A stretch of 64,000 bases of DNA. Source: Acidobacteriota bacterium. GTDB lineage: Bacteria; Acidobacteriota; Thermoanaerobaculia; Gp7-AA8. The notes beneath the pieces were generated by a model. The model was not told the DNA's origin and did not search any database. It saw nothing but the letters and a program-made list of their open reading frames with translations. The DNA lies in NCBI GenBank assembly GCA_021325515.1, contig JAJPHC010000034.1, forward strand, positions 1 to 64,000. Direction: 5' to 3'. Below, piece by piece: positions 1 through 6,309 of this stretch (the stretch's first letter is position 1; each line of letters starts with the position of its first letter). A program made the position numbers and the translations under genes.

Positions 1-2340
1 GCCCTGCTCGTGTGCGGCTTCGAGCCCGCGGCTGATCTGCCGCGCGAGGCCGACAGCGAGCCGCGGCGCCATCTGTTTGTTCGGCGCCTCATCCAGCAGC
101 TCGTTCAGGGTGTAGCCGCGCACGTACTCCATCGAGATGAAGTAGACGCCATCGGCCTCTCCGTAGTCGTACGTGCGAAGCACGTTGCGATGCGTGATCT
201 TGCGCGCGAGACGGATCTCGCGCTTGAAGCGCTCGAGCTCCTCGGGCGATTTCTGCAGGACGTCGCCCGGGAGCGTCTTGATCGCGACCGTCTCGTCGAG
301 CTGCGTGTCGATTGCCTTGTAGACGACCCCCATGCCGCCGCGCCCGAGGATCTGATCGATGCGATAGCGGTGGGCGAAATAGCTGCCGGCCGCGAGATCC
401 GCCGTTACCATTCCCGGCGCCGTCGGGCCCGGCGATGTGGCGTCCATCTTCATCGTCGTCGCGGAAATCGAAGCCGTCTGTGAGCCGAGCGACCGGAGCA
501 TTCCGGTCGTCATCGACACGAGCGGCACGGCGGCGACGACGAGCGGCTGCGGCACCCATTTCAACTGCACTTCCTCGCGCGTCGAGCTGGACATGATCTC
601 GCCGCCCGCGGTCTGTGCGGTCTCGTACGAGAGATAGGCATAACCGGCCGGGGCGTGCCACGCAAACAGCGATGCGAGGAGCGGCGCATTTCCGACGAGC
701 GCAACTCCCGTCTCTTCCTTCAACTCGACGGAGCCCGTCACGAACTGGCCTGTCGCGATTCCGACTCCCGCCGAAATCCCGTGGAGGTCCGCCTGCGATG
801 CGATCTCTTCGTTGATGGCGCGCGCTGCGCGGATCGCGTGAATGACTCCGCGGTCGCCGCGGAAAATACTGACGAGACGGTGGCCGACGATCTCGCGGAC
901 GAAGCCGTCCTGACGGCCCACTTCATCTTCCTGTAGCTTCATGATTCGCGAGACCATGCCGATGACGTTCGTCGCGTCATCCTGACCTGCAGCCGGCGGG
1001 AGGCCGCGGAGATCCGTGACCAGCACGGTTCCCTCTTCGATCTTCGGCGGCTCGAGATGCTTGACCGCCTCGCGTTCCGACACCTTCGCGGACATCTGCT
1101 CGTAGAGCTCTTCGAGCTCCGACTTGTCGCGCAGCGACGTGATCATCTTGGCGAAGGAGCGGCCGAGGATGCCGACTTCATCGCTGCGTTCGATGTCGGG
1201 ATGGACGCTGAGATCTCCGGCGGTAACCGCCTGTGCGATGCCCGCGAGCTCTTCGATCGGCGCGGTGAGCCGGCGCGCAATGACCCACGACAGCACGAAT
1301 GCGAGCAGCAGCGCAACGGCGCCGCCGGCGAACAGTGAGTTTTCGATTTCCTTGAACGGCGCAAGCTCACGGTCGAGCGAGCGAAGGAAGACGGCCGCGC
1401 CGACCGGCGTATTCACCGACATCAGCGGCTCGCCGGCCATGACGTAGGAGCTGTGATCGATCTCGACGTTCGACGCGGGCAGCATCTTGCCGCTGCTGAA
1501 GATCTGCGAGACGCCGGCCATCTGCTGCATGCCGGTGCTCGGCGCGTTGCTGGAGCGGGTCGCCGTGCCGCCGGTCGCGCGCGGAACGAACGCGACTCCC
1601 GCATTGGTCGACTCCGCGATTCGATTCGCGAACACGTCGTCGATGGCGTACGCGTTCAGAAGGTAGCCGACGCGCACTTTGGTCGCGCCGGCACCGACGG
1701 GAGCAACCGCCGCGTGATAGAGCTTGTTGCCGTAAACGAAGACGCCGGTTGCCGGTTGCGGAATCGGATCGTCGACCGCCTTTTTCACGAGCGGTGACTG
1801 TTCGTACAGGTCATCGCCCCGGGGCTTCGTCACGGCCGGTTGATCGGTTCCGGCGACGAGATGTCCCTGGTCGTCGATGAGCATCAACAGATCGCTGCCG
1901 AGCGACTCGCGGCGCTGCGTCAACTGATCGATGATGCTGACGAGATCGAGATTCGCATTCCCCGCGGCGGGCGGGGCACCGGCATTGGTGACCACCGCAG
2001 CCTGCGGCATCAGAGTGCTCTGGATGTACGCGGCGAAGGAGGGATCCCCTCCGACGATCTGCGCCGCCAGCGCGAGGCGGCCGAGGCGCTGGCGCTCGAA
2101 ATCCTCGAAGAGCTTTGCGGCGCTGGAGATCGACTTGCTCACCGTCTCACGTGCGATTTTGTTCGCACGCTGAACCGTGATTCCGACGGCGATCGACACG
2201 ACGATCGCGATCAGCAGCGCCGTGACCAGGAAGAGCTTCCAGACGAGCGGAAACTTCGCCTTCTCGACAACGATCTTCTTGCCGACGGGCGCCGTGTGAT
2301 CCGTGATCGTCACTGCGGAAGAGAGAGTGTCAGCACTCAA
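1..2340 (-). CDS. Transmembrane receptor Ser/Thr kinase with HAMP and degenerate cyclase-like domain (3' end outside window)
   Basis: The frame stays open from about 2340 to position 1, giving 780 residues with the C-terminus missing. In order I see a transmembrane helix (about 33-55), a roughly 280-residue extracytoplasmic sensor region, a second helix (about 335-355), a HAMP-like linker, a class III nucleotidyl cyclase-like domain (about 435-600) and a Hanks kinase N-lobe from about 660 with the loop GRGGMGVVYKA and AIK lysine. The window ends before the catalytic HRD. The cyclase fold keeps its first metal Asp (VTDLRG, residue 443), but the second is His (VGHRL, residue 487), and the usual N...R pair is absent, so cyclase activity is unlikely. 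TTG at 2340 directly abuts the stop of the upstream cupredoxin gene and has GAGGG 8 nt upstream; GTG at 2313 is the alternative start. It probably senses an envelope signal and phosphorylates cytoplasmic targets. Confidence 0.85.
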   Translation of the reverse strand, partial: MSADTLSSAVTITDHTAPVGKKIVVEKAKFPLVWKLFLVTALLIAIVVSIAVGITVQRANKIARETVSKSISSAAKLFEDFERQRLGRLALAAQIVGGDPSFAAYIQSTLMPQAAVVTNAGAPPAAGNANLDLVSIIDQLTQRRESLGSDLLMLIDDQGHLVAGTDQPAVTKPRGDDLYEQSPLVKKAVDDPIPQPATGVFVYGNKLYHAAVAPVGAGATKVRVGYLLNAYAIDDVFANRIAESTNAGVAFVPRATGGTATRSSNAPSTGMQQMAGVSQIFSSGKMLPASNVEIDHSSYVMAGEPLMSVNTPVGAAVFLRSLDRELAPFKEIENSLFAGGAVALLLAFVLSWVIARRLTAPIEELAGIAQAVTAGDLSVHPDIERSDEVGILGRSFAKMITSLRDKSELEELYEQMSAKVSEREAVKHLEPPKIEEGTVLVTDLRGLPPAAGQDDATNVIGMVSRIMKLQEDEVGRQDGFVREIVGHRLVSIFRGDRGVIHAIRAARAINEEIASQADLHGISAGVGIATGQFVTGSVELKEETGVALVGNAPLLASLFAWHAPAGYAYLSYETAQTAGGEIMSSSTREEVQLKWVPQPLVVAAVPLVSMTTGMLRSLGSQTASISATTMKMDATSPGPTAPGMVTADLAAGSYFAHRYRIDQILGRGGMGVVYKAIDTQLDETVAIKTLPGDVLQKSPEELERFKREIRLARKITHRNVLRTYDYGEADGVYFISMEYVRGYTLNELLDEAPNKQMAPRLAVGLARQISRGLEAAHEQG

Positions 2341-3003
2341 TCAGTAATCCCTCGCCGGCGTGTACGGCTTGTTTTCTTTGTTCAGATGCGGCGTCTGGCG
2401 GTAGGCGTTGCTGTCGATGGTTAGAGCCACCTTGTTCGTTCCACCAGCCGGCACGTCGAGCTTCGACTGCGTCAGCCCTCCCTGTTCGTTCCACGCCATC
2501 AGGGTGTACGACCCGGGAGGAACATCGGCGAGGGAGAAGGCTCCGGTCGCGTCGGTGAACGTGTAATACGGCGTGGCCATCACGTGAATCACGGCCGACA
2601 TCGTCGGATGGACGTTGCAGTAGACGTTGACGAGTCCCGCGCTCTTGAAGGTGTACGCCTTGCCGGTTCCGCGGCGATAGAGGCCGAGATCGAAGTTGTT
2701 GCCGCTCGAGAGGGAGAAGAGATTGTGCGAGATGGGATCGTCGTTGGGAAACTGCACGGTGGACCCGACCGGGATGGCCAGTACATGCGGCAGCAGGGTC
2801 TTCCCTCGGGTCGTCATGGTGACGTTCTCGGCTTTGCGCGGCGAGCTCTTCCCTGCGGGCTCGAGCCAGACGAGGGTCTCTTCCATGACGGGATGCTGAC
2901 CCCGTTTCGTGGCCAGACTGATACGACCGCTCACCCCTGCAGCGCTCAGTCCGGTAGCGGCGAGGCTTACAACACACACCCAAACGGCCAGAAGTCGTTT
3001 CAT
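2341..3003 (-). CDS. Secreted cupredoxin-domain protein with carboxypeptidase-regulatory-like tail
   Basis: This 220-residue protein has an N-terminal signal peptide (MKRLLAVWVCVVSLAATG). Its plastocyanin-like domain shows the blue-copper ligand pattern: His in ISHNLF, then Cys, His and Met in VYCNVHPTMS. The last third (GAFSLADVPPGSYTLMAWNE) resembles a carboxypeptidase regulatory-like beta-sandwich, as in many extracytoplasmic methylamine-utilisation/plastocyanin-like proteins. It likely binds copper and shuttles electrons, or senses copper or redox state, in the periplasm. Its stop codon touches the start of the receptor kinase gene, so the two are probably one transcript and may work together, with the kinase ectodomain reading the state of this protein; that last point is inference. 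Confidence 0.85.
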   Translation of the reverse strand: MKRLLAVWVCVVSLAATGLSAAGVSGRISLATKRGQHPVMEETLVWLEPAGKSSPRKAENVTMTTRGKTLLPHVLAIPVGSTVQFPNDDPISHNLFSLSSGNNFDLGLYRRGTGKAYTFKSAGLVNVYCNVHPTMSAVIHVMATPYYTFTDATGAFSLADVPPGSYTLMAWNEQGGLTQSKLDVPAGGTNKVALTIDSNAYRQTPHLNKENKPYTPARDY

Positions 3004-3039
3004 TGCAATCAGCTCCGGGAACCTTGAAGTTTAGCACAG

Positions 3040-3055
3040 CGGTCGTGTCCGACCG
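3040..3055. promoter_or_regulatory. Operator-like palindrome upstream of the cupredoxin-kinase genes
   Basis: CGGTCG and CGACCG form a perfect 6-bp inverted repeat around a 4-nt spacer, 37 bp upstream of the cupredoxin start. It lies in the divergent region shared with the candidate RNA promoter, so it could be a repressor or activator site or a leader hairpin. Nothing shows which protein would bind. Confidence 0.25.
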
Positions 3056-3093
3056 GCACGCCAATTGAAGATTAAAACAGCGTCATTTTTGTA

Positions 3094-3121
3094 TTGCGAT
3101 TTGAAATGGAAAACGTATCAT
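3094..3121 (+). promoter_or_regulatory. Sigma-70-type promoter for the candidate structured RNA
   Basis: TTGCGA at 3094-3099 and TATCAT at 3116-3121 are separated by 16 nt in a locally AT-rich patch. Initiation would fall near 3128. TTGAAA at 3101 with a box near 3123 is an alternative reading. Confidence 0.5.
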
Positions 3122-3127
3122 CTAAAC

Positions 3128-3470
3128 ATGCACAAAACGGAGAGCGGCGGGGCGACGTGCAATAAACGCCGTCTGTCCGCGTTACTCTGACTATACGTTT
3201 CTGATGCGGCAACTGGCCGCCTGGTTTCTTTGAACAAGTTGAAAAGATCCCGCTCCTCCCTATCACCACGGGGCGAGAAGGAGCGGTCGATCCGGTCCGC
3301 AACGCCGGCGGGGTGAGTCATGACCATGGCGTGACGCTTGTTGCGGGGCCACCGGAAATTCATGGGGGAGGAGGTACACGCGTTCGCATGAAATGTTCCA
3401 ATAATACTCAGGGGGCTACGACATCGTAGCGACCCACCCCGGAAGGGCGTCCGAGAGGGCGCCCTTTTTG
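3128..3470 (+). ncRNA. Candidate structured non-coding RNA, family not recognised
   Basis: The stretch between a promoter-like element and an intrinsic terminator is full of local helices and carries no convincing ORF. Stems are GCGGC/GCCGC (3206-3220), an 8-bp CCGCTCCT/AGGAGCGG (3250-3257 with 3279-3286) enclosing CCC/GGG, a 7-bp CCGCAAC/GTTGCGG (3297-3303 with 3340-3346), TTCATG/CATGAA (3359-3364 with 3387-3392) extended by GGAA/TTCC, and GCTACG-ACAT-CGTAGC (3415-3430). About 340 nt long, it lacks the signatures I know for RNase P, tmRNA and SRP RNA, and I could not match it to 6S RNA. The next plus-strand gene starts 680 bp past the terminator, so it is unlikely to be a riboswitch leader. 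Confidence 0.5.
3445..3470 (+). terminator. Intrinsic terminator of the candidate RNA
   Basis: GGGCG (3445-3449) pairs with CGCCC (3460-3464), followed at once by TTTTTG and a second T-rich patch. The orientation fits a plus-strand transcript. Confidence 0.65.
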
Positions 3471-3507
3471 ATTTTTGGGAGAAGCCGCCTCCCGCGCACG
3501 CGCCCAC

Positions 3508-3626
3508 CCATTCTTCATTCTGAATTCTGTGATTCTGAATTCTGAATTTCGCTTTTCGTCCCCTTCCACCGAGAGTCAAAAGCAAAATTCAGAATTCAGA
3601 ATCACAGAATTCAGAATGAGGAATGG
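3508..3626. repeat. Long inverted repeat, 42-bp arms, AT-rich
   Basis: Arms 3508-3549 and 3585-3626 are reverse complements with a single mismatch. They are built from iterations of ATTCTGAATTC. The 35-nt centre begins with GCTTTT and ends with AAAAGC, so it pairs too. The base composition contrasts sharply with the GC-rich surroundings. It could form a cruciform or a very long RNA hairpin, or be a small non-autonomous mobile element; no transposase or clear target-site duplication is visible. Confidence 0.8.
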
Positions 3627-3642
3627 CCCCCGCCCCTCCCCG

Positions 3643-3909
3643 TCAGTCCATCCGCGGAATCACCACTCGCCCGCTTTCCACCACGACCTGGGGGCTGCCC
3701 GGCACGAGGATCGCGCGCAGGCGCGCGCGAAAGAGCTCTGCGGAATCCACATCGGAATCGATCAGCCGCAGGATCGCGTCGACGTCGGCCGCGCGGATCC
3801 GCCGCGGTTTCCGGTCGAGACAGGCATTCGTGCGGCAGCGCGGGGTGCAGTACTTCCGTGTGGCGCGCGTCAGAGGAAAGTTCCTACCGCAGTAGGTGCA
3901 GGTGCCCAT
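3643..3909 (-). CDS. Small zinc-ribbon-like protein
   Basis: An 88-residue protein starting MGTCTYCGRNFPLTRATRKY. Two knuckles, CTYC and CTPRCRTNAC, can supply four cysteines for one zinc site, followed by a basic patch (DRKPRRIRAAD) and a helical tail that ends in a short beta hairpin. ATG 3909 was chosen because GGGAGGGA lies just upstream; the longer open frame runs back into the tRNA-Leu gene. No family-level function can be given. A nucleic-acid-binding or regulatory role is possible. Confidence 0.65.
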   Translation of the reverse strand: MGTCTYCGRNFPLTRATRKYCTPRCRTNACLDRKPRRIRAADVDAILRLIDSDVDSAELFRARLRAILVPGSPQVVVESGRVVIPRMD

Positions 3910-3971
3910 CCGTCCCTCCCGTGTGAGTGCACAAAGATAAGGGCACTGCAGGAGATCGTCAAGTAGTTGAC

Positions 3972-4057
3972 TGCCCCGGGCCGGACTCGAACCGGCACGC
4001 CCCTCGCGGAGCAAGGGATTTTAAGTCCCGTGCGTCTACCAATTTCGCCACCGGGGC
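3972..4057 (-). tRNA. tRNA-Leu (TAA)
   Basis: The reverse strand folds as a class II tRNA of 86 nt. The acceptor stem GCCCCGG pairs with CCGGGGC, the anticodon loop ACTTAAAAT carries TAA, there is a long variable arm, and the T loop reads GGTTCGAGTCC. The discriminator is A and CCA is not encoded. Confidence 0.95.
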
Positions 4058-4155
4058 GCACTGCTCAAAGACGGCACCCGCGACTCTAACCGTGCGACCG
4101 GCCCCGCGCAATCCATGCGGTATCATTCGCCGCTAATCTACCTGGAGGCTTTCGC

Positions 4156-5334
4156 ATGACCACCACCACCGACATCACCGCCGGCGCTCCTCTCACTCTG
4201 CTCTCCGAAGACGAGCAGATGTTCCAGCAGAGCGTGCGCGAGTTCGCCATCGAGCGCATTCGCCCTCTCGTTCACCAGATGGATCACGACGCGAAGATGG
4301 ACGGCGATCTGATCAAGGCCTTCTTCGAGCTCGGCATCATGGGCATCGAAACGCCGGAGCAGTACGGCGGTGCAGGCTCGACCTTCTTCAATGCCGTGCT
4401 CGTGGTCGAAGAGCTCTCCCACGTCGACGCCGCCTGCGGCGTCCTCGTCGACGTCCAGAACACGCTCGTCAACAACGCGCTCATCCGCTGGGGCAACGAA
4501 GACCAGAAGTCGAAGTACCTCGCGATGCTCGCGCGCGACACCGTCGGCGCCTATGCGCTTTCCGAGGCCGGGTCGGGGTCGGATGCGTTCGCGCTGGCGC
4601 TGCGCGCCGAAGACAAAGGCGATCACTGGGTTCTGAACGGCCAGAAACTCTGGATCACCAACGCGGCCGAGGCAGGCATCTTCATCGTCTTCGCAAACGC
4701 GAATCCGGATGCCGGCTACAAGGGCATCACCGCTTTCATCGTCGAGCGCGACTTCCCCGGCTTCCGCGTCGGCAAGAAGGAAGACAAGACGGGCATCCGC
4801 GCCTCCTCAACCTGCGAGCTGATCTTCGAAGACTGCCGCGTTCCCAAAGAGAACGTCCTCGGCGAGCCCGGCAAGGGCTACAAGATCGCGATTGAAACGC
4901 TGAATGAAGGACGCATCGGAATCGGTGCGCAGATGCTCGGCGTCGCGCGCGGTGCACTCGAGCATGCGATCGCCTATTCGAAAGAGCGCAAGCAGTTCGG
5001 ACAGCCGATCTCCAGCTTCCAGGGCATTCAGTTTCAGATCGCGCAGGCGGCTACGGACCTCGAGGCAGCGCGCCTGCTCGTCTATAACGCGGCGCGCCTC
5101 AAGGATGCCGGCAGGCCGTTCCTCCGCGAAGCGGCGATGGCCAAGCTCTTCTCCTCCCAGGTGGCAGAGAGGGTGACGTCGGTGTCCGTCGAGATCTTCG
5201 GCGGCAACGGTTATACGCGTGAGTATCCGGTCGAGAAGTTCTGGCGCGATTCGAAGATCGGCAAGATCTACGAAGGGACGAGCAACATGCAACTGGCCAC
5301 GATCGCGAAGACGATCCTGACCGATCGGTTGTAG
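4156..5334 (+). CDS. Acyl-CoA dehydrogenase (short/branched-chain type)
   Basis: A 392-residue FAD flavoenzyme of normal family length that forms 2-enoyl-CoA from acyl-CoA in fatty-acid or branched amino-acid breakdown. Visible family signatures are ALSEAGSGSDAFAL (FAD/substrate region), WITNAAEAGIFIVFA, RKQFGQPISSFQGIQFQIA and the C-terminal IYEGTSNMQLATIAK, where the Glu is the usual catalytic base of short-chain members. TGGAGG precedes the ATG. The substrate cannot be fixed from sequence; butyryl-CoA or 2-methylbutyryl-CoA are the usual choices. It is followed 11 bp later by a small hypothetical gene, probably cotranscribed. Confidence 0.92.
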   Translation: MTTTTDITAGAPLTLLSEDEQMFQQSVREFAIERIRPLVHQMDHDAKMDGDLIKAFFELGIMGIETPEQYGGAGSTFFNAVLVVEELSHVDAACGVLVDVQNTLVNNALIRWGNEDQKSKYLAMLARDTVGAYALSEAGSGSDAFALALRAEDKGDHWVLNGQKLWITNAAEAGIFIVFANANPDAGYKGITAFIVERDFPGFRVGKKEDKTGIRASSTCELIFEDCRVPKENVLGEPGKGYKIAIETLNEGRIGIGAQMLGVARGALEHAIAYSKERKQFGQPISSFQGIQFQIAQAATDLEAARLLVYNAARLKDAGRPFLREAAMAKLFSSQVAERVTSVSVEIFGGNGYTREYPVEKFWRDSKIGKIYEGTSNMQLATIAKTILTDRL

Positions 5335-5810: not shown

Positions 5811-5839
5811 CTAGTGCTCTGTCCTCGACAGAGCACTAG
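5811..5839. terminator. Perfect 13-bp palindrome between convergent genes
   Basis: CTAGTGCTCTGTC (5811-5823) and GACAGAGCACTAG (5827-5839) flank a CTC loop. The element sits between two convergent genes and contains the stop codon of the minus-strand one. No T-run follows on either strand, so bidirectional termination is only likely. ACAGAGCACT also occurs in the tandem repeat at 7953-8075. Confidence 0.55.
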
Positions 5840-6309
5840 TGCGCGTCGCGTTGCCGGCGCGCCAGCCGCTGCAGAAAATCCCACGCGATTCCACCGCTCG
5901 TCTTCCGCAGCGTCATGAAGTACACCGCGATGGCGACCGCTCCGCCGATCCACGCCAGTGCTCCGAACTGCGTGCCGTGTGCCGTGAACGGCCACAGCAT
6001 GAAGAGCAGCGAGCCGATCACACCGATGAGCAGCAGCGCGATGCGCTGAGCCTTCGGCGCATCGACATCGCGGTCGCAGCGAAGCGTGACGCTCCCCTCG
6101 CCTTCATCCTGGAGTGCCCAGGAAACTGTGCACTCGATGGCGCCGGCCGCGGAGACGCCGCGCCGAAGCGGCAGCGTGAACACGCGCGAACGCTCGAGCG
6201 TCTCCGACATGCTGCCGCCATAAAGCTCCACCAGTTCGCCGATCGTCTCCTCGATTCCCGCGATCGGGATCCGGTCCTCGGTGAACTCCACCGGCTGCGC
6301 TTCCGTCAT
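5836..6309 (-). CDS. Small membrane protein with two C-terminal helices
   Basis: A 157-residue protein, not recognised. Residues 1-85 form a soluble beta-rich part, followed by two hydrophobic segments (IALLLIGVIGSLLFMLWPF and FGALAWIGGAVAIAVYFM) and a short basic tail. ATG 6309 overlaps the stop of the upstream M61 peptidase gene (ATGA) and has AGGAGAGA in front, so coupled translation is likely. It may be an accessory of the peptidase, but only gene order supports that. Confidence 0.75.
   Translation of the reverse strand: MTEAQPVEFTEDRIPIAGIEETIGELVELYGGSMSETLERSRVFTLPLRRGVSAAGAIECTVSWALQDEGEGSVTLRCDRDVDAPKAQRIALLLIGVIGSLLFMLWPFTAHGTQFGALAWIGGAVAIAVYFMTLRKTSGGIAWDFLQRLARRQRDAH

Follow-up and report, generated by a model that had tools for sequence, protein, structure and literature searches.

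The plus-strand segment at positions 3094–3470 of the window (a 64,000-nt stretch of contig JAJPHC010000034.1 from an Acidobacteriota bacterium of the class Thermoanaerobaculia; assembly GCA_021325515.1) is marked by conservation and covariation as the gene of a structured RNA of ~340 nt with its own promoter and its own terminator, and almost certainly represents a new family of conserved structured RNAs. Its covariation-supported core consists of a hairpin (P1), an arm (P2/P3), and a pseudoknot joining the two, and the molecule is most likely a dual-function or ribosome-engaging regulatory RNA. The original prediction of an unassigned structured RNA of this length is supported by the lack of an Rfam match and by clear covariation; it had missed the boxA-like element, the pseudoknot, the alternative pairing of the Shine–Dalgarno sequence, and the micro-ORF described below.

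The σ70-type promoter (TTGCGA-16-TATCAT, 3094–3121), from which transcription would be expected to start near 3128, is the only promoter-like site on the plus strand of the 2000–5000 region. Most of the 16 relatives compared have a matching hexamer pair at the corresponding position, and the promoter is one of the better-conserved stretches 5′ of the core. At the other end, the intrinsic terminator (~3441–3469, plus strand) is the strongest terminator-like site in the same region, with the stem and T-run kept in all copies, copy L016 having the weakest T-run. Both signals, which had been proposed from the single sequence, are thereby borne out. Just past the terminator lies a near-perfect inverted repeat (3508–3626) with 49-nt arms that are 96% complementary and separated by 21 nt; it is built from TTCTGAATTCTG units found nowhere else in the window. 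Matches of microRNA models at 3508–3626 were dismissed as spurious, because this adjacent repeat causes them.

In a BLASTN comparison with relatives, nearly every genome of the organism's own family had the element, as did one genome of a sister family of the same order. The covariance model of the core (R1) identified 16 genomes with a single copy each (15 of the own family and one of the sister family), and nothing in the rest of 149 Thermoanaerobaculia genomes or among the others in a sample of 396 genomes from the phylum, under strict filters by which weak relatives could be missed. The RNA family thus appears to be restricted to one order of Thermoanaerobaculia within the class and phylum samples searched. 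Three genomes of the own family were found to be devoid of the RNA; the neighboring secreted protein (see below) was also sought in these three and not found, so that loss of the RNA is indistinguishable from missing sequence. Distant homologs were also sought next to rpoD in further families of the class, with nothing above noise except the known sister-family copy (best others, E of about 0.05 with filters off), and viral contigs searched for the RNA gave no match. Pattern matches in Nitrospira (L022, in a coding-like stretch) and Methanoculleus (L030) were rejected as chance, as neither has the fold or the other motifs.

The proposed structure accounts well for the 16 distinct sequences, with 97.7% of the cells being standard pairs, as compared with 36–53% when the structure is slid along the alignment. 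The covariation check proposed earlier was run on these homologs and yielded 11 pairs in which both partners vary, compared with 4.3 ± 1.5 after shuffling. The folding energy is only modestly unusual relative to shuffled sequences (z, −2.2), and the case therefore rests on comparison, namely conservation and covariation. The P1 hairpin (3248–3290) is composed of the pairs 3248–3256/3280–3290 and an inner helix, 3258–3261/3269–3272; the two are 99–100% paired, with two pairs changed on both sides, and the 5′ strand contains the pyrimidine-rich CUCCUCCC. The P2 arm (3291–3356) comprises P2a (3291–3295/3352–3356), P2b (3297–3303/3340–3346), and the cap P3 (3317–3322/3330–3335), in which eight pairs are changed on both sides; P2b and P3 carry the majority of the compensatory changes in the structure. 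The pseudoknot (3263–3316) is formed between the P1 loop CCACC (3263–3267) and GGUGG of the P2 arm (3312–3316); it is 95% paired, and two genomes carry a double change of UA for CG. Among the stems listed in the original prediction, those of 8 bp at 3250/3279 (P1), 7 bp at 3297/3340 (P2b), and 6 bp at 3415/3425 (the upper part of P4, see below) are real and conserved, whereas the 6-bp stem at 3359/3387 is fully paired in just 5 of the 16 copies, the others having 4–6 of the 6 pairs, and shows no clear compensatory change.

The domain 5′ of the core is mostly poorly conserved, except for the promoter, a hairpin loop, and the element TTCTTTGAA. The hairpin (P0, 3138–3186, plus strand) has the conserved loop GCAAUAA (3159–3165) on a stem whose sequence varies among genomes; it is predicted in most copies, the exceptions being L005, L007, and L016. 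TTCTTTGAA (3226–3234, plus strand) occurs once in the window and is, by its resemblance to boxA, a putative NusB/S10 site. Directly 5′ of it, most copies have a boxB-like hairpin, GCGGC-NNNNN-GCCGC (3206–3220). A boxA-like motif of the TC[TA]TT type is kept in 15 of the 16 copies; its core reads TCATTGA, with an A inside, in three genomes, and one further genome departs more. Since the assembly of the organism itself yielded no 16S, rrn leaders of relatives were used for comparison. Those of the family contain GGTTC[TC]TTGACAAC, and the leaders of four related genomes have a small hairpin followed by GGTTCTTTGACAAC or GGTTCCTTGACAAC. The core of the element in the RNA, TTCTTTGA, matches GGTTCTTTGAC of the rrn leaders of related genomes, apart from the three TCATTGA copies. 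The rrn leaders L069–L072 also share a common promoter and a hairpin–boxA block, GTCGGTTC[TC]TTGACAACTGAATAGGATAG. The element differs in its 3′ half from the gammaproteobacterial consensus GYTCTTTAANA. BoxA is known outside rRNA operons, for example in the suhB leader (PMC5725501), which likewise has a boxA-like element 5′ of an untranslated stretch and a Shine–Dalgarno sequence; in the present RNA, the Shine–Dalgarno sequence is located far downstream of the putative boxA. Such a signal behind a hairpin would probably recruit NusB/S10 and keep Rho from ending the long untranslated stretch.

Downstream of P2, the RNA continues with GGGGGAGGAGGTAC, followed 8–10 nt beyond that string by an ATG. 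The Shine–Dalgarno sequence GGGGGAGGAGG (3364–3374, plus strand) includes GGAGGTA, which is invariant in the 16 copies, and the ATG is equally invariant among variable neighboring positions; the GGAGG–ATG spacing is 11–13 nt in most copies, longer than usual. The ATG opens a micro-ORF of 13 codons (3388–3429, plus strand; MKCSNNTQGATTS and a stop), the commonest form in relatives being MDCSSKPEGASS and a stop. The earlier statement that no ORF is convincing had overlooked this frame behind a strong Shine–Dalgarno sequence. Among the copies, the ORF is 12–16 codons long and ends just before the terminator; several lineages have gained or lost codons, with length changes in multiples of three, and still end at the homologous in-frame stop. 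A column-shuffle coding test detected no significant protein-level constraint (conservative substitutions, P = 0.09; synonymous fraction, P = 0.36). The two most distant copies lack a conserved peptide, the sequence having diverged fully in the sister family and in genome G003. With an invariant ATG and an in-frame stop, but no significant codon signal and diverged distant peptides, translation of the micro-ORF is suggestive only. Its last codons and stop are spanned by the P4 hairpin (3411–3440, plus strand), which has a GGGG/CCCC base and a variable upper stem and forms, just before the terminator, in almost every individually folded copy, with widely differing stem sequences.

The Shine–Dalgarno sequence is complementary to CUCCUCCC of P1, which gives this strand a choice between two partners, the 3′ strand of P1 and the Shine–Dalgarno sequence. 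In predicted ensembles, calculated with pseudoknot energies not included, the helix of the P1 strand with the Shine–Dalgarno sequence prevails in 8 of the 16 copies and P1 in 7, the remaining copy favoring neither. All copies keep U10 of the P1 strand, although the P1 fold does not pair it consistently; such invariance would be expected if the alternative helix matters. None of the pairs found only in the closed state is changed on both sides, and two genomes have lost one of them. Because of the dual pairing of its P1 strand, the RNA probably has two states, one open and one closed to 30S binding. The anatomy of this translational gate, which we infer from the predicted folds, would be such that the exchange of the two states controls 30S binding at the Shine–Dalgarno sequence, a step to which we give even chances. 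In the open state, ribosomes would, on a slight balance of probability, translate the 12–16-codon ORF ending in P4 just before the terminator.

The genes surrounding the RNA were compared among the 16 genomes. In 13 of them, the 5′ side is occupied by a divergent pair encoding a small secreted protein and a HAMP/kinase protein. The pair had been described as a copper protein and a receptor kinase; the pair itself and its HAMP/kinase member stand, while the copper label is unconfirmed by Pfam, the secreted protein having a sequence (VYCNVHPTM) that resembles a cupredoxin copper site. In the other three genomes, the 5′ genes include a primase-like gene (by sequence inspection) and rpoD (by Pfam). 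The RNA of the sister family lies directly 3′ of rpoD with a −10-like site of its own. At this locus (L051; G018:C2, ~5820–6290), the order is rpoD, the RNA, and tRNA-Leu(UAA), with a −10-like TATACT between rpoD and the RNA, and it is possibly the ancestral arrangement. A tRNA-Leu(UAA) is often found near the RNA on either strand. In the window, the next features 3′ of the RNA are a zinc-ribbon-like ORF and a tRNA-Leu, both on the opposite strand. The former (CTYC...CTPRC; 3643–4014, minus strand) is near the RNA in 8 of the 16 loci and has no Pfam match. The downstream genes differ among the copies in kind and strand, indicating that the RNA constitutes an independent gene rather than a leader attached to a conserved gene downstream.

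This variability also bears on the function. The bistable pairing of the Shine–Dalgarno sequence and the terminal hairpin are typical of leaders, but a riboswitch or attenuator leader of a downstream gene is very unlikely, given that these genes vary in identity and strand and in the window lie on the opposite strand; the synteny, in which no downstream gene is conserved, led to rejection of such a role for a neighboring gene. Nor is it at all plausible that the RNA is a housekeeping RNA (RNase P, tmRNA, 6S, or SRP RNA) in diverged form. The length, similar to that of RNase P RNA or tmRNA, and the proximity of rpoD in some genomes might suggest one; however, all four RNAs are found above the cut-off at separate loci of the same genome, in agreement with the original prediction, which had set them aside, and no model matches at 3094–3470. 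A search with the 4227 models of Rfam 15, the check that had been called for, gave no family reaching its gathering cut-off and, at E ≤ 10, no credible match inside the RNA.

Without a conserved gene behind the RNA, three outputs are left: the micro-peptide, ribosome binding as such, or a trans action of the core. A purely noncoding, trans-acting RNA, binding ribosomes or mRNAs through, for example, the G-rich GGGGGAGGAGG or the C-rich CUCCUCCC, with an accidental ORF, would fit the weakly constrained amino-acid sequence, the usual service of boxA-type antitermination to untranslated RNA, and the lack of a conserved downstream target gene. This is rather unlikely, considering that the ATG is kept in every copy amid variable neighbors and the homologous stop stays in frame through the length changes. 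Conversely, the strong Shine–Dalgarno sequence, the conserved start and stop, and the bistable pairing that precedes the ORF could be those of a micro-peptide gene, in which the RNA structure serves solely as the 5′ untranslated regulator and the 12–16-residue peptide is the whole product; the complete divergence of the peptide in the sister family and G003 makes this improbable. We lean, by a small measure, toward a regulatory RNA specific to this lineage that controls ribosome access through a bistable gate and may be of dual function. In its most explicit version, a stand-alone RNA would be transcribed with rRNA-type antitermination, its pseudoknotted bistable core would control the entry of ribosomes at the 12–16-codon micro-ORF, no gene would follow downstream, and ribosome binding or the micro-peptide would be the regulated output; taken as a whole, this version is doubtful.

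Several known systems resemble this regulatory RNA in part. The dual-function small RNAs SgrS/SgrT and SR1 are, like it, autonomous and structured, with a terminator and a short internal ORF. VcdRP of Vibrio cholerae (PMC8672173), another dual-function RNA, shares the same features. The present RNA has no homology to these three, its ORF of 12–16 codons is placed at the 3′ end, and it has a boxA-like element and a pseudoknot. Translational riboswitches and bistable leaders likewise have two exclusive helices, one covering the Shine–Dalgarno sequence, an arrangement that is predicted here; in contrast to them, the RNA has no conserved downstream gene, its micro-ORF is immediately followed by a terminator, and it has no Rfam match. 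The candidate structured RNAs found by comparative genomics (PMC2864571) are similarly intergenic, covarying, lineage-specific, and of unknown function, from which the present RNA is set apart by matching none of the Rfam models.

Altogether, a phylum of soil bacteria that are abundant but mostly uncultured gains a well-supported family of structured RNAs. The combination in this RNA of a boxA-like signal with a pseudoknotted core, for which two folds are predicted, and a terminator-capped micro-ORF is unusual. If the proposed gate is true, it would be a switch having a micro-ORF as its output instead of a downstream gene.
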